Shown: positions 13,199 to 20,147 of the stretch, one piece after another | How positions within the stretch are numbered: the stretch's first letter is position 1 | Layout of the letters: each line of letters opens with the position of its first letter | Origin: Oceanipulchritudo coccoides | GTDB lineage: Bacteria > Verrucomicrobiota > Verrucomicrobiia > Opitutales > Oceanipulchritudinaceae | Length of the DNA: 64,000 nt | Assembly: GCF_010500615.1 (NCBI RefSeq) | Contig: NZ_JAAGNX010000001.1 | Span: forward strand, 1-64,000 | Direction of reading: 5' to 3' | Translations under genes and position numbers: made by a program | Notes under the pieces: generated by a model | What the model was told of the DNA's origin: nothing | Database searches by the model: none | What the model saw: the letters and a program-made list of their open reading frames with translations, nothing else

Positions 13199-13918
13199 AT
13201 GAACCGAATCCTTTTTGAGGATCAGGCCTCTTCTTACTCGCTTGATCCGAAGGACCCGCGCTTTGAACATGTGCGCGGCGTCCTGCGAATGAAGGCAGGC
13301 GATGTGTTCGATATCGGGGTTGTCAATGGTCCCGCCGGCCGGGCGCGCATTGGCAAACTCTCCAGCACGATGATGGAGGTCGAAGTGGAGTGGGGCGACC
13401 GGCCGCCTTTGCCGCCACCCATTCATCTTCTCGTTGGGATGTGCCGCCCAGCGACTGCCCGCAAGATTCTCACAACCGCCCCAACCCTGGGTGTGCGGGA
13501 GCTGATCTTCAGCCCCTGTGGTCGGTCGGACCCCGCTTATGCCCGCTCCAGCCTCTGGGAAGGTCAGGAATGGCGCGCAAAAATCATCGAGGGCGTGGAA
13601 CAGGCCTTCGACACCTATGTGCCGCCGCTTCGGCTTCCCGCATCACTTGAAGAAGCGGGCGCATTGCTTCCGCGGGAGACTTCCAAACTCGCCCTGGATG
13701 TCTATGAAGGGTCGGAGCGACTCAGTGCCGTTTGCCTACCGCCGGACACGCCCGTTTGCCTGGCTATCGGTCCGGAACGCGGTTGGAATGCCAATGATCG
13801 ATCCCTGCTCGTGGATGCCGGCTTTCAACTGGTCTCCTTGAATGAACGCGTCCTGCGCGTGGAGACTGCCGTCGTCACTGGCCTGGCCCTACTCATGGGC
13901 AGGCTGGGGGTGCTTTGA
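13199..13918 (+). CDS. RsmE-family rRNA methyltransferase, divergent copy
   Basis: A 239-residue SPOUT-fold protein of the RsmE family (16S rRNA m3U1498 methyltransferase). The N-terminal PUA-like part has DPRFEHVRGVLRMKAGD. The knotted SAM site is recognisable as AIGPERGWNANDRSLL followed by LNERVLRVETAVV, where most RsmE proteins have IGPEGG and LG-x-RILR-ETA. A second, more canonical family member lies at 19419-20147. This copy may be specialised for another RNA site, though conserved catalytic text argues that it is active. Confidence 0.85.
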   Translation: MNRILFEDQASSYSLDPKDPRFEHVRGVLRMKAGDVFDIGVVNGPAGRARIGKLSSTMMEVEVEWGDRPPLPPPIHLLVGMCRPATARKILTTAPTLGVRELIFSPCGRSDPAYARSSLWEGQEWRAKIIEGVEQAFDTYVPPLRLPASLEEAGALLPRETSKLALDVYEGSERLSAVCLPPDTPVCLAIGPERGWNANDRSLLVDAGFQLVSLNERVLRVETAVVTGLALLMGRLGVL

Positions 13919-13945: not shown

Positions 13946-14008
13946 GAGAACTGAATTGGCGGCCGTTCTTTGCATGACAGGATTGCCAACCTAACCGAAT
14001 GCTCCATT

Positions 14009-14224
14009 ATGAATTTCATGAAGTTTACTGTGACTTTGGACCGTGATGAAGATGGAGTCTGGATTTCCGAATGTCCGGCAATTCCAGGCTGCGTCAGCCA
14101 AGGTAAAAATCGCGAGGAAGCTCTGGCCGGCATTCGCGAGGCCATTGCCGCCTGCTTGGAAGTGCGTGCGGAGCAGGGGATGCCCCTGACAGTCGAAACA
14201 AGGCAGGTTCAAGTTACCGTCTAG
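14009..14224 (+). CDS. hicB: HicB-like antitoxin
   Basis: A 71-residue protein with the HicB/UPF0150 partial RNase-H-like fold: F-VTLDRDEDGVWISECPAIPGC followed by S-GKNREEALAGIREAIAA. It would neutralise the neighbouring HicA toxin by binding it. No added helix-turn-helix or ribbon-helix-helix domain is seen after the core, so DNA binding would need the short C-terminal strand. The start could also be the ATG at 14018, and the upstream TTG at 13970 is unlikely. hicB precedes hicA by seven bases. Confidence 0.85.
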   Translation: MNFMKFTVTLDRDEDGVWISECPAIPGCVSQGKNREEALAGIREAIAACLEVRAEQGMPLTVETRQVQVTV

Positions 14225-15053: not shown

Positions 15054-15178
15054 TTGTCTTGAGGATGCGGGCAAGGGCCGTTCAGGCAAGTGAAGAGAGG
15101 GATTCCGGGAAATTTCTCTTTTGTGTTTCCTTCTGTCTGGAATTCCGTAAACCCGTTATTGCTTAAACCAAACTGTAA

Positions 15179-16582
15179 ATGGGATTTCGAAGACTGATAG
15201 GGACCCTTTCCGGGTTCATTCTGCTTGCCCTGCTTCCACAACTCACCGCCAAGGAACTTAATCTCTGGCCAGCCTTTGTGAAGCAGTGGGATTCCCCGCA
15301 GGCGCGTCTCGACCACGCGGGCAGCCTCGGCCCGATCTTTTCCGTCACCGATCAAGGCGATACCCGGATTCTCAGTATTCGCCCGTTGTGGACGTCCTTC
15401 ACCAACGCGCAGACCGGCAACTCGAGCCGCCACATCCTTTATCCGTTGCTCAACTGGTTCGACAAGGGCGATGTTCAGTACGGCCATGCCTTCAATATCC
15501 TCCAATACCGCCACAACGCTCCCCGCGAGGATACGTTTTTCCAGTTTGTCCCGTTTATTTTTAGCCGGAAGACTCCCGATCCGGAGGAATCCTATTTTGC
15601 CCTCTGGCCGGTTGGGGGTGTCCTTAAGAACCGCTTATCGCGTGACCGGATCACCTTTGCCGCATGGCCTCTCTTTGTCCGGACTCAACGTGATGACGAG
15701 ACCCGCACCCATGTCCCGTATCCGTTTTTGCAGTTTCTCAATGGTCCCCGGAGTCGCGGGTTCGGGCTCTGGCCGCTCTACGGGCACTTCCAGCGCGACA
15801 ACGACTACGATCACACATGGGCCCTCTGGCCGTTCTATTACGACTACAAGGACAAGCTGGATGAGGCGGTTCCCTACGCCCGCTTTGGCGTGCTTCCATT
15901 CTATTCCCGGGAAACTGCCGAGGGATTGAAAAGCGAGACCTTTGTCTGGCCCTTCTTTGGCTACACGCTTGAGAATGAGCCGCGCACAATGTATTCGGAA
16001 AATCGCTACTTTTGGCCGCTTTTTGTCCAGGGCCGGGGCGAGGAACGCTACGTTAATCGCTGGATGCCGTTCTACACGGATGAGCGCAAACCCGGATACC
16101 AGAAGCATTGGTACCTTTGGCCGTTGCTCGAGACAGAGCGCTTTGAACAACCCGGCCTCACCCGCGAACGGACTTCCTTCCTTTATTTCCTCTATCGCGA
16201 TGAACGCCAGTACTTCGCCGACACAAGCGCCCGTCTGACTTTTCTCTGGCCGTTTTTCGGATACTGGAACGATGGGTATGACCGCCGGCAGCTTCAAGTC
16301 CTCGACCCGTTGAGCGTGTTCTTCCCTTCAAATCGCAAGGTCAAGGAGAACTGGACACCGCTCTTTGCGCTCTACCGCTTTGACGAACGCTCGGGTAACG
16401 CCCGGCATTCCGTTCTTTGGGACATGGTCGTCTGGGAAAAGGATCCGGAGGGGCTGAAGGCTATTTACGCCGGGCCGCTCTTTGAATGGGTTGAAGGCAG
16501 CCACTGGGAACTTTTGAAGGGACTCGTTGGGTCCCGGCGCGAGAATGGGGAAACCCGCACGACAACATTCTGGAGGGATTGA
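15179..16582 (+). CDS. Exported protein with ~19-residue W-P-aromatic repeats, function unknown
   Basis: A 467-residue product with a signal peptide ending near LTAKE (residue 24). The mature part is built from a motif like LWP[LF][FY]. Copies begin at about residues 29, 68, 87, 123, 142, 162, 181, 197, 216, 238, 256, 278, 295, 313, 355 and 393. Most gaps are 16-22 residues and the larger ones are about double, so the unit is about 19 residues. Between motifs lie charged turns rich in R, D and E. This suggests a long beta-repeat (propeller, solenoid or barrel) in the periplasm or outer membrane. It precedes mlaE by 51 bases on the same strand, hinting at an envelope lipid role. I recognise no named family. 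Confidence 0.8.
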   Translation: MGFRRLIGTLSGFILLALLPQLTAKELNLWPAFVKQWDSPQARLDHAGSLGPIFSVTDQGDTRILSIRPLWTSFTNAQTGNSSRHILYPLLNWFDKGDVQYGHAFNILQYRHNAPREDTFFQFVPFIFSRKTPDPEESYFALWPVGGVLKNRLSRDRITFAAWPLFVRTQRDDETRTHVPYPFLQFLNGPRSRGFGLWPLYGHFQRDNDYDHTWALWPFYYDYKDKLDEAVPYARFGVLPFYSRETAEGLKSETFVWPFFGYTLENEPRTMYSENRYFWPLFVQGRGEERYVNRWMPFYTDERKPGYQKHWYLWPLLETERFEQPGLTRERTSFLYFLYRDERQYFADTSARLTFLWPFFGYWNDGYDRRQLQVLDPLSVFFPSNRKVKENWTPLFALYRFDERSGNARHSVLWDMVVWEKDPEGLKAIYAGPLFEWVEGSHWELLKGLVGSRRENGETRTTTFWRD

Positions 16583-16633: not shown

Positions 16634-17386
16634 ATGAAAGCGGTAATGGATCTTTTTGAATGGATTGGTTCAGGGGTGCAAATGTCCCTGAAGACGATCG
16701 GGTTTTTTCCAAACCTTCCCCGCCAGTGGAAGCAACTGGTCGAGCAATGCCTATTCATGGGCTACGCGACCGTGCCACTGGTGGCGATTCTGAGCGTCTT
16801 TATCGGTGCTGTGCTGGCCCTGCAGATCGGCTACAGTATCATGGATTTCGGGGCCAAGCAGTACATCGGGCCGATCGTTGGCCTTTCCATGGTGCGCGAG
16901 TTGTCGCCCGTCATGACGGCTGTCATGGTTACCGGACGTGTCGGCTCCGCTGTGACTGCCGAGCTCGCCTCGATGCGGGTCTACCAGGAGGTTGATGCGT
17001 TGAAGACGATGAACATTCCACCGGAGCGCTTCCTCGTCATGCCAAGGCTGGCGGCGATTCTCCTCGTCATGCCGATTCTTCTCATGGTCTCTGTCGTCAC
17101 CGGATGGATGGGCGGCCAGATTGTCTGCCAGTTTGTGCCGTGGTTGGCCATCACTCCCGACACCTACTACAATTCGCTGAAGGCCATGATGACCCTTGAT
17201 GATGTCACCGACGGCCTCATCAAGGCGGAGCTTTTCGGGATCGGGATTCTTCTGATTTCCAGCCATCTCGGCCTCCGTACTTCCGGCGGACCTCGCGAAA
17301 TCGGGGCGGCGGTGACGCGGGCGGTTGTTGTCTGCATCATTTTTATCCTGATTTTTGACTACTTCATCACCAATATTCTCATATAG
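16634..17386 (+). CDS. mlaE: Phospholipid ABC transporter permease MlaE
   Basis: A 250-residue inner-membrane permease that moves phospholipids between membranes together with MlaF and MlaD. The MlaE/YrbE signature is clear: FIGAVLALQIGY (about 54), SMVRELSPVMTAVMVTGRVGSA (about 85-106), ELASMRVYQEVDAL (about 109) and a C-terminal GGPREIGAAVTRAVV (about 219). The family's usual five to six helices are present. AAGGA lies 12 bases before the ATG. The gene begins the mlaEFD set and no mlaB or mlaC gene is adjacent. Confidence 0.94.
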   Translation: MKAVMDLFEWIGSGVQMSLKTIGFFPNLPRQWKQLVEQCLFMGYATVPLVAILSVFIGAVLALQIGYSIMDFGAKQYIGPIVGLSMVRELSPVMTAVMVTGRVGSAVTAELASMRVYQEVDALKTMNIPPERFLVMPRLAAILLVMPILLMVSVVTGWMGGQIVCQFVPWLAITPDTYYNSLKAMMTLDDVTDGLIKAELFGIGILLISSHLGLRTSGGPREIGAAVTRAVVVCIIFILIFDYFITNILI

Positions 17387-17393
17387 GGCACGC

Positions 17394-18173
17394 ATGGAAT
17401 CCACAGTACAAGTCGAGCCGGTTTCCGTATCGGTGAAGAATCTTTCAAAGTCCTTCGGGACGCAACAGGTCCTGAGGGATGTCTCCTTTGAGGTGAAGCC
17501 GGGTGAGATTTTTGTCCTCATGGGGCCAAGCGGCTCGGGCAAGTCCGTCCTCATGCGGCACTTGATTGGTCTTGAGAAGAGCGACAGCGGGCAAACCCTG
17601 GTCGGCGACGGCGATGCCCAACAGGCTGAAACCCACGAGCGGATTCGCACATCCATGGTCTTTCAGGCTGGGGCCCTTTTCAATTCGATGAAGGTCTATG
17701 ACAACCTCGCCCTCTATCTGCGCGAGCACCGGCTCTACGACGAGGCAACGATTCGGACCAAGGTGGAGTCTGTCATGAAGGCGCTCTCCATCGAGGCCGC
17801 TGGCGACAAAATTCCAGCCCAGTTGTCCGGCGGGATGAAAAAACGGGTCGCTGTCGCCCGGGCCATTATCATGGAGCCCCAGCTTATCCTCTACGATGAG
17901 CCCACTTCCGAGCTTGATCCGATCCTCGCCGCAACCACGACCGAGCTGATCGCCACAATTTCCCGCGAAACCGGCGCAACCAGCATGGTTGTCACCCATG
18001 ACCGCGAGCTGGCCTTGGCCATCGGGGATCATGTCGCCCTTCTCATGGAGGGCGAGCTGGTCTTCGGCGGTACACCCGAGGAGCTTCGCAACAGCACCGA
18101 CCCGGCTGTCCGGGAATTCATGAATCCAAAAATTGATCCAGATAATCCACGCTTTCGCAAACAGGAGAAATAA
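17394..18173 (+). CDS. mlaF: Phospholipid ABC transporter ATP-binding protein MlaF
   Basis: A 259-residue ATPase driving MlaE. Walker A is GPSGSGKSVLMRHL (about 44). The Q-loop follows in SMVFQAGALFNSMKVYDN, with the family's ALFNSM. The signature is LSGGMKKRVAVARA (about 143-156), with Walker B LILYDEPTSELDP and the switch VTHDRELA. The frame extends upstream to 17355 inside mlaE, but the ATG at 17394 with a normal N-terminus is preferred. mlaD follows after two bases. Confidence 0.94.
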   Translation: MESTVQVEPVSVSVKNLSKSFGTQQVLRDVSFEVKPGEIFVLMGPSGSGKSVLMRHLIGLEKSDSGQTLVGDGDAQQAETHERIRTSMVFQAGALFNSMKVYDNLALYLREHRLYDEATIRTKVESVMKALSIEAAGDKIPAQLSGGMKKRVAVARAIIMEPQLILYDEPTSELDPILAATTTELIATISRETGATSMVVTHDRELALAIGDHVALLMEGELVFGGTPEELRNSTDPAVREFMNPKIDPDNPRFRKQEK

Positions 18174-18175
18174 TT

Positions 18176-19159
18176 ATGAACCAAACCTTCCAATCCATTC
18201 GTGTGGGCATTTTCTTTGTCCTCGGAGTCATCCTTATCTATGCGGTCTACACCGTTATTGGCTCGGGTGCCATCAAGAGCGATACGGGCTACACGATCAC
18301 CGCTGAGTTTGACAATATCCGCACCTTGACCCCGGGCTCCGATGTCCGCATGGCGGGTGTCTTCATTGGCCAGGTCACGTCGACCGAGCTGGCCGATGGC
18401 CGTGGGCTTGTCACCCTCCGGGTTGATCCTGAGGTCCAGATCCCTGCCGATTCCGTGGCCAGTATCGCCATGTCCAGCCTGCTCGGACAGAACTATGTCT
18501 CGGTTGATTACGGCGCAGACTCGGCTTTGCTCAGCGGGGGTGACCAGATCCTCACCGACGAGGGAGCTGACTTCAATGAAATCCTCGGAGAGGTCAAAAA
18601 GCTCGGGGAGCGTCTGAATTCAATGGCCGAAAGCTTTTCCGGGCTGGAAGGTGGAGGCATGGGTGAGCTCTTCACCAATCTCAATGAGCTCGTGACCGAC
18701 AACCGCAACCGCTTTGACACGGTCATGGTCAATCTCGAGGAACTCACCACCAAGCTCAATTCGAGCGAGGGAACCCTCGGTAAGTTGATTAATGAAGACG
18801 GTATGTACACCGAGCTCATGTCTGTTGTGGATGATTTTCGAAGCGCTTCAGCCGATATGAAGGACACCCTGGCCAGCGCAAAGGACCTTTTCGCCAAGGT
18901 GGAAGCTGGCGAAGGCACCCTCGGCCGCCTGCTGGTTGATGACACCATCGCCGTCGAGCTCGAGGCGACCATCGCCAACATGAAGTCCTTCTCCGAAAAG
19001 CTCAATTCGGGCGAAGGGACCCTTGGCAAGCTCGTGACCGACGATTCCCTCTACGTCGAGCTCCGCGGAATGCTCAATAAGGCCGACCAGGCCCTTGACA
19101 GTCTTGGGGATTCCGGCCCGATCACCGCTGCCGGTGCGGTTTCCGGGGCCTTGTTCTAA
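18176..19159 (+). CDS. mlaD: MCE-domain lipid transport protein MlaD
   Basis: A 327-residue protein with one N-terminal membrane anchor (about 10-30), then a single MCE domain (about 40-115: F-NIRTL-PGSDVRMAGV-IGQV). It is longer than E. coli MlaD (about 180). Residues 115-327 form a polar, probably helical extension in which an EGTLGKL-x5-Y-EL unit appears at about 198, 246 and 280. MCE proteins with such tails can bridge the periplasm. It is followed by a terminator at 19313, closing the operon. Confidence 0.92.
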   Translation: MNQTFQSIRVGIFFVLGVILIYAVYTVIGSGAIKSDTGYTITAEFDNIRTLTPGSDVRMAGVFIGQVTSTELADGRGLVTLRVDPEVQIPADSVASIAMSSLLGQNYVSVDYGADSALLSGGDQILTDEGADFNEILGEVKKLGERLNSMAESFSGLEGGGMGELFTNLNELVTDNRNRFDTVMVNLEELTTKLNSSEGTLGKLINEDGMYTELMSVVDDFRSASADMKDTLASAKDLFAKVEAGEGTLGRLLVDDTIAVELEATIANMKSFSEKLNSGEGTLGKLVTDDSLYVELRGMLNKADQALDSLGDSGPITAAGAVSGALF

Positions 19160-19312
19160 GCAGTTTCGGCCGGCGAATCCTGACAAAAGGGGTTTTTTCG
19201 GGAAAAAGAGAAAACTTTTTGAACGAAAACCGGAACACCCCCGTCTTAATCTACAGACGCACTTAAACAGTCGTCGTTTTCAGTCTAGTTTGTAGTTTGG
19301 TTAAGCACTTAA

Positions 19313-19348
19313 GCCCCGGTTTCCTTCAAGAAGCCGGGGTTGCTTTTT
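19313..19348 (+). terminator. Intrinsic terminator after mlaD
   Basis: CCCCGG (19314-19319) pairs with CCGGGG (19334-19339), extended by flanking A/T bases, and is followed closely by TTGCTTTTT. It lies about 150 bases after the mlaD stop and 70 bases before the next start, in a 259-base gap with no other gene. Confidence 0.8.
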
Positions 19349-19418
19349 ATGCGGATTGAAAGCCCCAAGAGCCCCCTTTCGGATTGCCAAATCAGCTCCC
19401 AGCACCTTTCTGAAGGGA

Positions 19419-20147
19419 ATGTTGAGGGCATACAGTAGCAGTTGGGACGGGGGCAATGTCCTGCCAAAGCTCGACCGGGAGGAAGTCCACCACCTTGTGC
19501 GGGTGCGCCGTGTGCGAATTGGGGAAATAGTGGAAATCCTCAACGGAAAGGGCCATGTCGGCTCAGCCGAGGTCCTCTCAGTGGATGGCACAAAGCTTGG
19601 CCTGAACCTCCGGGCGATCCGTGAGATCCCGGAATCTCGCCTGCAGGTCCATTTGCTGGTGGCTCTTCCAAAGGGAAAAACCTTTCCCGGCCTTCTTCAC
19701 AAGGCAGTCGAGCTCGGGGTTTCCCGGATCACGCCCTTGGCCACGGAAAATGTCGAAGTGCCTCCCGAGCGCGCTGGGAAAAAACAGGATCGATGGGAAT
19801 CAGTCCTGATCGAGGCCTTGAAGCAATCCGGGAATCCCTGGATGCCACGACTCGATGCTCCCTCCAGTCTTGATAAGGAACTACAGGGACCAGCAGACGC
19901 CGCCCGGATTTGCGCCGCCCTCCAACCCGATGCAAGCCCACTTTGGCAGCTCTTGGGAAATCCGCTCAAGCCCGTGGGGGTGATCCAGGTCTTTGTGGGC
20001 CCGGAAGGGGATTTTTCAGATGCTGAGTACAAACAGTTGCGCGGAGCCGGTTGCCACTTTGTTTCCCTCGGTCCTCTTGTCTTGAAAGTTGAGACCGCCG
20101 CCTCCCTCGTTATGGGTGCTTTGCAGCTCTGGTCACAGGGCGCTTGA
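19419..20147 (+). CDS. rsmE: 16S rRNA (uracil-1498-N3) methyltransferase
   Basis: A 242-residue SPOUT methyltransferase modifying helix 44 of 16S rRNA. It has the normal RsmE text: LDREEVHHLVRVRRVRIGE near residue 18, LPKGKTFPGLLHKAVELGV near 86, IEALKQSGNPWMPRL, and the knot FVGPEGDFSDAEYKQLRGAG followed by LGPLVLKVETAAS. This is the more canonical of two family members in the window (the other is at 13199). The ATG at 19419 is preceded by GAAGGG. The upstream frame from 19356 runs through intergenic sequence after the terminator. Confidence 0.92.
   Translation: MLRAYSSSWDGGNVLPKLDREEVHHLVRVRRVRIGEIVEILNGKGHVGSAEVLSVDGTKLGLNLRAIREIPESRLQVHLLVALPKGKTFPGLLHKAVELGVSRITPLATENVEVPPERAGKKQDRWESVLIEALKQSGNPWMPRLDAPSSLDKELQGPADAARICAALQPDASPLWQLLGNPLKPVGVIQVFVGPEGDFSDAEYKQLRGAGCHFVSLGPLVLKVETAASLVMGALQLWSQGA

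Follow-up and report, generated by a model that had tools for sequence, protein, structure and literature searches.

A 64,000-nucleotide stretch of the Oceanipulchritudo coccoides genome (contig NZ_JAAGNX010000001.1, positions 1 to 64,000, hereafter the window) encodes a 467-residue exported protein that AlphaFold2 predicts to be a long stack of beta-hairpins, with tryptophan-proline (W-P) turns recurring along one edge. We term it the WP-hairpin-ribbon protein, or ribbon protein. Its gene is the first of an operon-like run with mlaE, mlaF, and mlaD, an arrangement conserved across much of the phylum Verrucomicrobiota, and it is seldom found in a genome that also encodes MlaA and MlaC. We propose that the ribbon protein is probably an exported, nonenzymatic subunit of an alternative Mla system, made up of the WP-ribbon, MlaE, MlaF, and MlaD, in which it replaces MlaC and MlaA.

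Conserved linkage of the ribbon gene to mlaEFD

Our searches covered the phylum Verrucomicrobiota through 55 relatives, 86 genomes of the order, and 289 sampled genomes of the phylum; the GTDB species collection was searched with a 10-sequence profile, and its best 80 loci were kept. Members of the ribbon family occur in 25 of the 55 relatives and in 134 of the 289 phylum genomes, including classes beyond the window's own, whose members are only remotely similar (best E about 1e-61). The titles of the 80 best loci are Opitutia-type or general Verrucomicrobia, except for one given only as "bacterium". In all 80, mlaE lies directly downstream on the same strand, at a distance of 13–238 bp, and it is immediately downstream in 22 of the 25 first-match loci. 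The linkage extends to loci from other classes, where the ribbon protein is only distantly similar and where mlaE, mlaF, and mlaD follow its gene in 17 of 20 cases. No mla gene lies within the fetched stretch of the other three (L144, L147, and L156), and in L147 and L156 the neighboring genes are predominantly of the cell-wall, prenyltransferase, or TPR kind. Two genomes of the order (G024 and G028) have the ribbon-type mlaE on a different contig from the ribbon gene. It is well supported that the ribbon gene heads the mlaEFD operon all through Opitutia and in further classes of the phylum. An earlier reading of the window, made from the sequence only, had placed the gene ahead of mlaEFD on the same strand and had called for a survey of mlaE adjacency in relatives; the placement is confirmed by the Pfam matches downstream, and the adjacency proves to be conserved in both the Opitutia loci and the distant ones.

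The short ribbon-family member of L156 (3893-5002, - strand; ≈370 residues; genus g144) adjoins UbiA, Mur-ligase, and TPR genes and not mlaE. It may be a paralog with another partner.

In the window itself, matches to PF02405, PF00005, and PF02470 lie in one four-gene run on the + strand with the ribbon gene, with intergenic gaps of at most 51 bp. Because the gaps are this short and a pattern scan detected nothing terminator-like ahead of mlaE, the ribbon gene and mlaEFD are likely to be co-transcribed. The same type of scan found no sigma-70-like match in the divergent region upstream (15090..15178). The features of the locus are as follows.

15179..16582, + strand: WP-hairpin-ribbon protein, 467 residues, first gene of the mla operon (open reading frame, AlphaFold2 model, family searches)
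15179..15250, + strand: predicted signal peptide, residues 1–24, cleavage site approximate (hydrophobicity; helix at residues 2–18 in the AlphaFold2 model)
15254..16300, + strand: about 18 consecutive predicted beta-hairpins, residues 26–374 (DSSP of the AlphaFold2 model, covariation, hydrophobicity gradient)
16301..16372, + strand: conserved helical insert, residues 375–398, xPLxVFFPxNxxVxxxWxPLFAL (two short helices in the model, family alignment)
16373..16567, + strand: predicted C-terminal hairpins, residues 399–463 (AlphaFold2 model, DSSP)
16634..17386, + strand: mlaE, permease (PF02405, E 2.8e-69), starting 51 bp after the ribbon gene
17394..18173, + strand: mlaF, ATPase (PF00005, E 3.5e-32), start assigned by inspection to the ATG of MESTVQVEP
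18176..19159, + strand: mlaD, with a transmembrane helix, one MCE domain, and a helical extension of ≈190 residues (PF02470, E 2.8e-19)
19115..19156, + strand: conserved C-terminal tail of MlaD, GPITAxGxxxxxLF, GPITAVGVVANALF-like (alignment of 57 MlaD sequences)
15090..15178, no strand assigned: divergent intergenic region, presumed promoter region of the operon (gene layout; rsmD on the opposite strand)
19312..19341, + strand: terminator-like hairpin 3' of mlaD, 12-bp stem (pattern match only)

The open reading frame begins with a hydrophobic segment, which upholds the earlier claim of an exported protein, and 71 of 74 family members have a hydrophobic N-terminal core like that of the window protein. 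No cysteine stands at the predicted signal-peptide cleavage site of the window's protein. A loose lipobox pattern occurs in 8 of the 74 members, and a second transmembrane-like segment occurs in none of them.

The region containing rsmD and the WP-mlaEFD genes is bracketed by two RsmE-family 16S rRNA methyltransferase genes (PF04452), one per side, at 13199-13918 (+, 239 residues) and 19356-20147 (+, 263 residues). The first of these has homologs at the same position in several relatives. An 84-residue HicB-like antitoxin (PF15919) is encoded at 13970-14224 (+).

Near-exclusion of MlaA and MlaC

Neither PF04333 (MlaA) nor PF05494 (MlaC) was found in the O. coccoides genome, which is 99% complete, with E. 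coli and Caulobacter as positive controls, and the single MCE protein found in it is MlaD. The sequence-only reading had noted that mlaA and mlaC are not adjacent to this operon; that observation stands and can be taken further, as neither is found anywhere in the genome and both are nearly mutually exclusive with the ribbon gene. Among the 55 relatives, 25 carry the ribbon gene, 12 carry MlaA and MlaC, and none carries both (Fisher p = 2e-4; this value and those that follow ignore the relatedness of the genomes). The 86 genomes of the order include 45 with the ribbon gene and 23 with MlaA, with an overlap of 1 (p = 3e-8), and in the 289 phylum genomes there are 13 overlaps between the ribbon gene (124) and MlaA (111), with p = 1e-18.

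The window's own family contains both states, ribbon and MlaA/MlaC, and so does one other family; several exchanges of the one set for the other are therefore probable. In a tree of MlaE, a single clade (100/100) holds the ribbon-type permeases of the order, apart from the permeases of MlaA/MlaC operons. Since the MlaE clades differ too, the exchange looks like a swap of whole operon types instead of the loss of single genes.

Elsewhere in the phylum, in families that mostly lack MlaC, MlaA has a further arrangement and forms the N-terminal part of proteins of ≈620–880 residues. Of three such proteins examined, 712–776 residues long (L227 1250-3463; L228 934-3072, - strand; L229 1692-4022), two have weak similarity to esterases or alpha/beta-hydrolases in their C-terminal part. 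These long MlaA proteins might couple lipid extraction to lipid hydrolysis.

The W-P repeat and the predicted hairpin ribbon

The W-P repeat is real but is not strictly periodic. The strict motif, hydrophobic-[WFYLV]-P-hydrophobic-hydrophobic, occurs 11 times in the window protein against 0.6 expected from composition-preserving shuffles, among 20,000 of which the maximum was 5 copies, and the WP dipeptide occurs 9 times against 1.5 expected. The sequence-only reading had counted at least 16 copies, a number that holds for a looser, family-conserved form of the motif and not for the strict one. Across 167 homologs, 21 columns keep a proline in at least 80% of sequences. These are residues 31, 52, 69, 89, 125, 144, 164, 182, 199, 218, 240, 258, 280, 297, 315, 358, 377, 394, and 433, together with 268 and 383, which are out of register. 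The claimed spacing of 16–22 residues or about double agrees with the 20 gaps between these prolines, 80% of which measure 16–22 or 34–43 residues as compared with 22% expected under random placement, a regularity reached in 0 of 20,000 random-placement simulations. The spacing is nevertheless not strict: it varies from 17 to 22 residues, and for that reason a simple periodogram of the window protein on its own is not significant.

AlphaFold2, run on the window protein with an alignment of 74 homologs, gives a model with a mean predicted local distance difference test score (pLDDT) of 94.2 and a predicted template modeling score (pTM) of 0.82. The model is all-beta, a continuous meander of 45 short strands with a mean length of 5.8 residues as assigned by DSSP, in which W-P-type loops of 3–5 residues alternate with polar loops of 2–8 residues. 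One repeat of ≈20 residues corresponds to one hairpin, and there are ≈22 consecutive hairpins overall, the stack being broken by the conserved two-helix insert at residues 375–398, which is a candidate docking surface. Along residues 26–374, the W/L-P-aromatic turns line one edge of the predicted hairpins and the polar or charged turns line the other. The unusual beta fold with a regular unit that had been predicted from the repeat is thus borne out in the model, where the structure does repeat. The barrels and propellers suggested for comparison are not what the model resembles, as a stack of short hairpins is neither.

The topology was also examined through direct-coupling scores from 165 sequences (effective number 152), pooled across all turns, a check that is not fully independent of AlphaFold2, which uses related information. 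Residues placed symmetrically on either side of the polar turns show strong covariation (a level reached by 0 of 5,000 random placements). Residues placed symmetrically around the W-P loops covary as well, even those that lie 3–5 positions into the strands (p = 0.0006). The chain therefore appears to reverse at the W-P loops, which counts against 22 long barrel strands with prolines at mid-strand. Covariation is likewise seen for pairs that would bring adjacent W-P loops together, at polar-turn offsets of 6–8 (0 of 5,000), which fits W-P turns stacked next to one another on one edge. A weak covariation signal at pairs 13–16 from the polar turns (p = 0.007) has no ready explanation. On average across the family, the positions flanking the W-P loops are 92–93% hydrophobic, and those 3–5 residues beyond are 14–33% hydrophobic and 32–53% charged. 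If every loop reverses, all W-P turns share one edge, and the result is a ribbon with one hydrophobic and one polar edge. As a model, this hairpin-ribbon architecture with one hydrophobic edge is well supported. The ribbon's length, curvature, and surface hydrophobicity are derived from the sequence and from MORN dimensions; at the MORN rise of ≈9 Å per hairpin, the 22 hairpins would give an estimated length of ≈195 Å. The width of the periplasm is near this value.

Other arrangements of the chain were considered. A V-shaped groove in which W-P is a mere bend is disfavored by the covariation 3–5 residues either side of the loops, which favors full reversal (p = 0.0006), and a beta-propeller or YD-shell was dropped because those Foldseek matches align at a root-mean-square deviation (rmsd) of 15–35 Å.

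Searches of Pfam, NCBIfam, PHROGs, and PDB sequences, with single sequences and with profiles, returned no match for the ribbon protein, and no Pfam family matches the window's protein at E ≤ 1. No PF04333 (MlaA) or PF05494 (MlaC) match was found for it or its homologs in Pfam, the same searches gave no sequence match to TamB/AsmA/LptA-type families, and plasmid searches and viral contigs gave no ribbon-protein match. Foldseek found no global structural match (best TM-score of 0.20 in the PDB and 0.23 among viral models). The top ranks of VIA-align are held by single-layer sheets: the CPAP/TCP10 G-box (Z 10.5), OspA (Z 9.2), and MORN1 of Trypanosoma brucei (Z 9.2) and Toxoplasma gondii (Z 9.1), the MORN1 matches fitting at 4.7–5.2 Å over 164–168 residues. 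Scores in this range can arise from a common arrangement, and these matches are taken to show architecture and not kinship. LptC, at Z 6.6 over 91 residues, is within the range that such an arrangement can give, and that no other bridge-type protein is among the matches says nothing either way. A MORN-like tandem-hairpin single-layer sheet is accordingly present in the AlphaFold2 model as architecture only and not as membership, and no Pfam MORN match was found in the window protein or in any of 23 homologs. The ribbon protein shares with MORN proteins (MORN1 of T. brucei, T. gondii, and P. falciparum; junctophilin) tandem hairpins of two 6-residue strands, ≈20–23 residues per repeat, a single-layer sheet, and a lengthwise aromatic strip. 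Unlike them, it has W-P turns in place of the YxGEW/GxG motifs, is exported and bacterial, and is tied to mlaEFD. The CPAP/TCP10 G-box and OspA, which reach the highest Z values, likewise form a free-standing antiparallel single-layer sheet, but their rmsd is mostly 6.8–12 Å, and they differ in biology and lack sequence similarity to the ribbon protein.

Possible roles and relation to known Mla systems

How the ribbon protein might work with MlaEFD is suggested by MlaD as well as by the ribbon itself. In its AlphaFold2 model, MlaD has a transmembrane helix, an MCE domain, and the helical extension of ≈190 residues; no C-terminal beta-barrel is seen, and the model is of low confidence beyond the MCE domain. 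The MlaD tail, in which P315, A318, L326, and F327 are invariant among the 57 aligned sequences, is not resolved in the model (pLDDT below 50). The helical extension and the conserved tail together are a plausible contact place for the ribbon. In the alternative Mla system that we favor, the ribbon protein would be exported by Sec and would then be periplasmic or sit on the periplasmic side of the outer membrane. There it would contact the far end of the MlaD hexamer, at the helical extension and the tail, possibly through its own helical insert. The continuous hydrophobic edge would receive the acyl chains of phospholipids, or guide them, on the way between MlaD and the outer membrane. The ribbon would thereby pass lipid to the outer membrane or take it from there, as MlaC and MlaA do in Proteobacteria. 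The sequence-only reading had suggested a periplasmic or outer-membrane part of a lipid pathway, a suggestion strengthened by the failure to find MlaA or MlaC in the genome and by the near-exclusion, with the outer-membrane location putative. More tentatively, the protein could represent a new bridge-like lipid-transfer class, in which a self-standing W-P hairpin ribbon of ≈20 nm spans the periplasm, carries phospholipid between MlaEFD and the outer membrane, and takes the place of both the shuttle MlaC and the extractor MlaA. Such a class would have no evolutionary tie to LptA, TamB/AsmA, or VPS13; we regard it as possible at best.

Several points weigh against a lipid-handling subunit that replaces MlaA and MlaC. 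The ribbon gene is not beside mlaE in G024 and G028 or in loci L144, L147, and L156. Six phylum genomes carry the ribbon gene together with MlaA and MlaC, in all six with the ribbon set and the MlaA/MlaC set on different contigs, and 18 of the 55 relatives have neither set. The Fisher values are also to be read with the shared ancestry of the genomes in mind, and lipid conduction, localization, and periplasm spanning by the ribbon are what we infer from this evidence. In MORN1, the closest well-studied look-alike, a subunit of 9 hairpins is ≈80 Å long and has a 16-Å-deep groove lined by stacked aromatics; the groove is filled by this self-stacking aromatic strip, and no binding to membranes was found (PMC7725318). 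A hydrophobic strip therefore need not carry lipid.

The MORN precedent leads to a different role, in which the ribbon would be a rigid interaction rod that fastens MlaEFD to the outer membrane or some other partner, with the W-P strip as its spine and lipid passing through the MlaD hexamer only. MORN1 repeats, the closest well-fitting architecture, mediate dimerization and do not bind membranes (PMC7725318), and a protein-protein interaction rod has already been proposed for MORN repeats. The ≈190-residue helical extension of MlaD could, moreover, form a tunnel of its own, as modeled for the MlaD of Veillonella parvula (PMC10665443). We nonetheless consider such a scaffold or tether rather unlikely, as exclusion with both the lipid carrier MlaC and the lipid extractor MlaA suggests, if indirectly, that a lipid-handling step has been taken over and that the role is not purely mechanical. 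That the adjacency to mlaEFD is historical only, the gene serving some other envelope role, seems improbable. A few genomes do carry the ribbon gene away from mlaE (for example, at loci L017 and L024), but the constancy of mlaE as a neighbor in the 80 best loci and of mlaEFD in 17 of 20 loci across classes with distantly similar proteins is hard to reconcile with it, as are the near-exclusion with MlaA/MlaC and the matching MlaE clades.

More improbable still is an outer-membrane beta-barrel of ≈22 long strands with W-P at mid-strand, acting as the pore or anchor of the system. The polar ends and hydrophobic middles of the repeats do read like barrel strands, porin and LptD chains are among the weak VIA-align matches (Z 5.7–6.9), and some family members end in aromatic residues, whereas many others have a Pro/Ala/Ser-rich tail at the end and no terminal strand. 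The strands of the model, ≈6 residues long and broken at every W-P, fall short of the ≈9 or more residues needed to span a membrane in a closed sheet. Pairs across the W-P loops covary, which requires chain reversal, and the near residue-for-residue structural matches are single-layer sheets and not barrels. The 22-strand barrel with mid-strand prolines, to which we gave serious consideration, is disfavored on these grounds of strand length, W-P-loop covariation, and structural matches.

Returning to the ribbon protein as a subunit of an alternative Mla system, it can be compared with the bridge-like lipid transporters TamB, AsmA, and LptA, which are beta-rich periplasmic proteins with a hydrophobic groove between the two membranes. 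Unlike these, the ribbon protein has no Pfam match, and a separate TamB-family protein is encoded in the window's genome. The proteobacterial Mla system (MlaA, MlaC, MlaFEDB) has the same inner-membrane permease, ATPase, and MCE protein, but MlaA and MlaC are not found in the window's genome, which encodes the hairpin-ribbon protein instead. A nearer comparison is the minimal MlaEFD of V. parvula, in which a long MlaD carries a C-terminal outer-membrane barrel; MlaD proteins of the PVC group are reported to lack the barrel, and the same study raises the question of whether nonhomologous proteins stand in for the components missing on the outer-membrane side (PMC10665443). Both systems have MlaEFD without MlaA and MlaC, a long MlaD with a helical extension, and a beta-structured element thought to supply the missing outer-membrane side. 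They differ in that the ribbon-type MlaD is predicted to have no barrel at its end and that the operon begins with the gene of another exported protein, whose fold is unrelated. The ribbon gene is thus a concrete candidate for the outer-membrane-side component in a large part of Verrucomicrobiota, and a literature search of partial coverage found no description of its product. Given a standard transporter core and a conduit role still unproved, what is new is an Mla partner of unusual fold and not a categorically new system. If the ribbon carries lipid, it would bring a new fold to the small set of proteins that carry phospholipids from one membrane to another.
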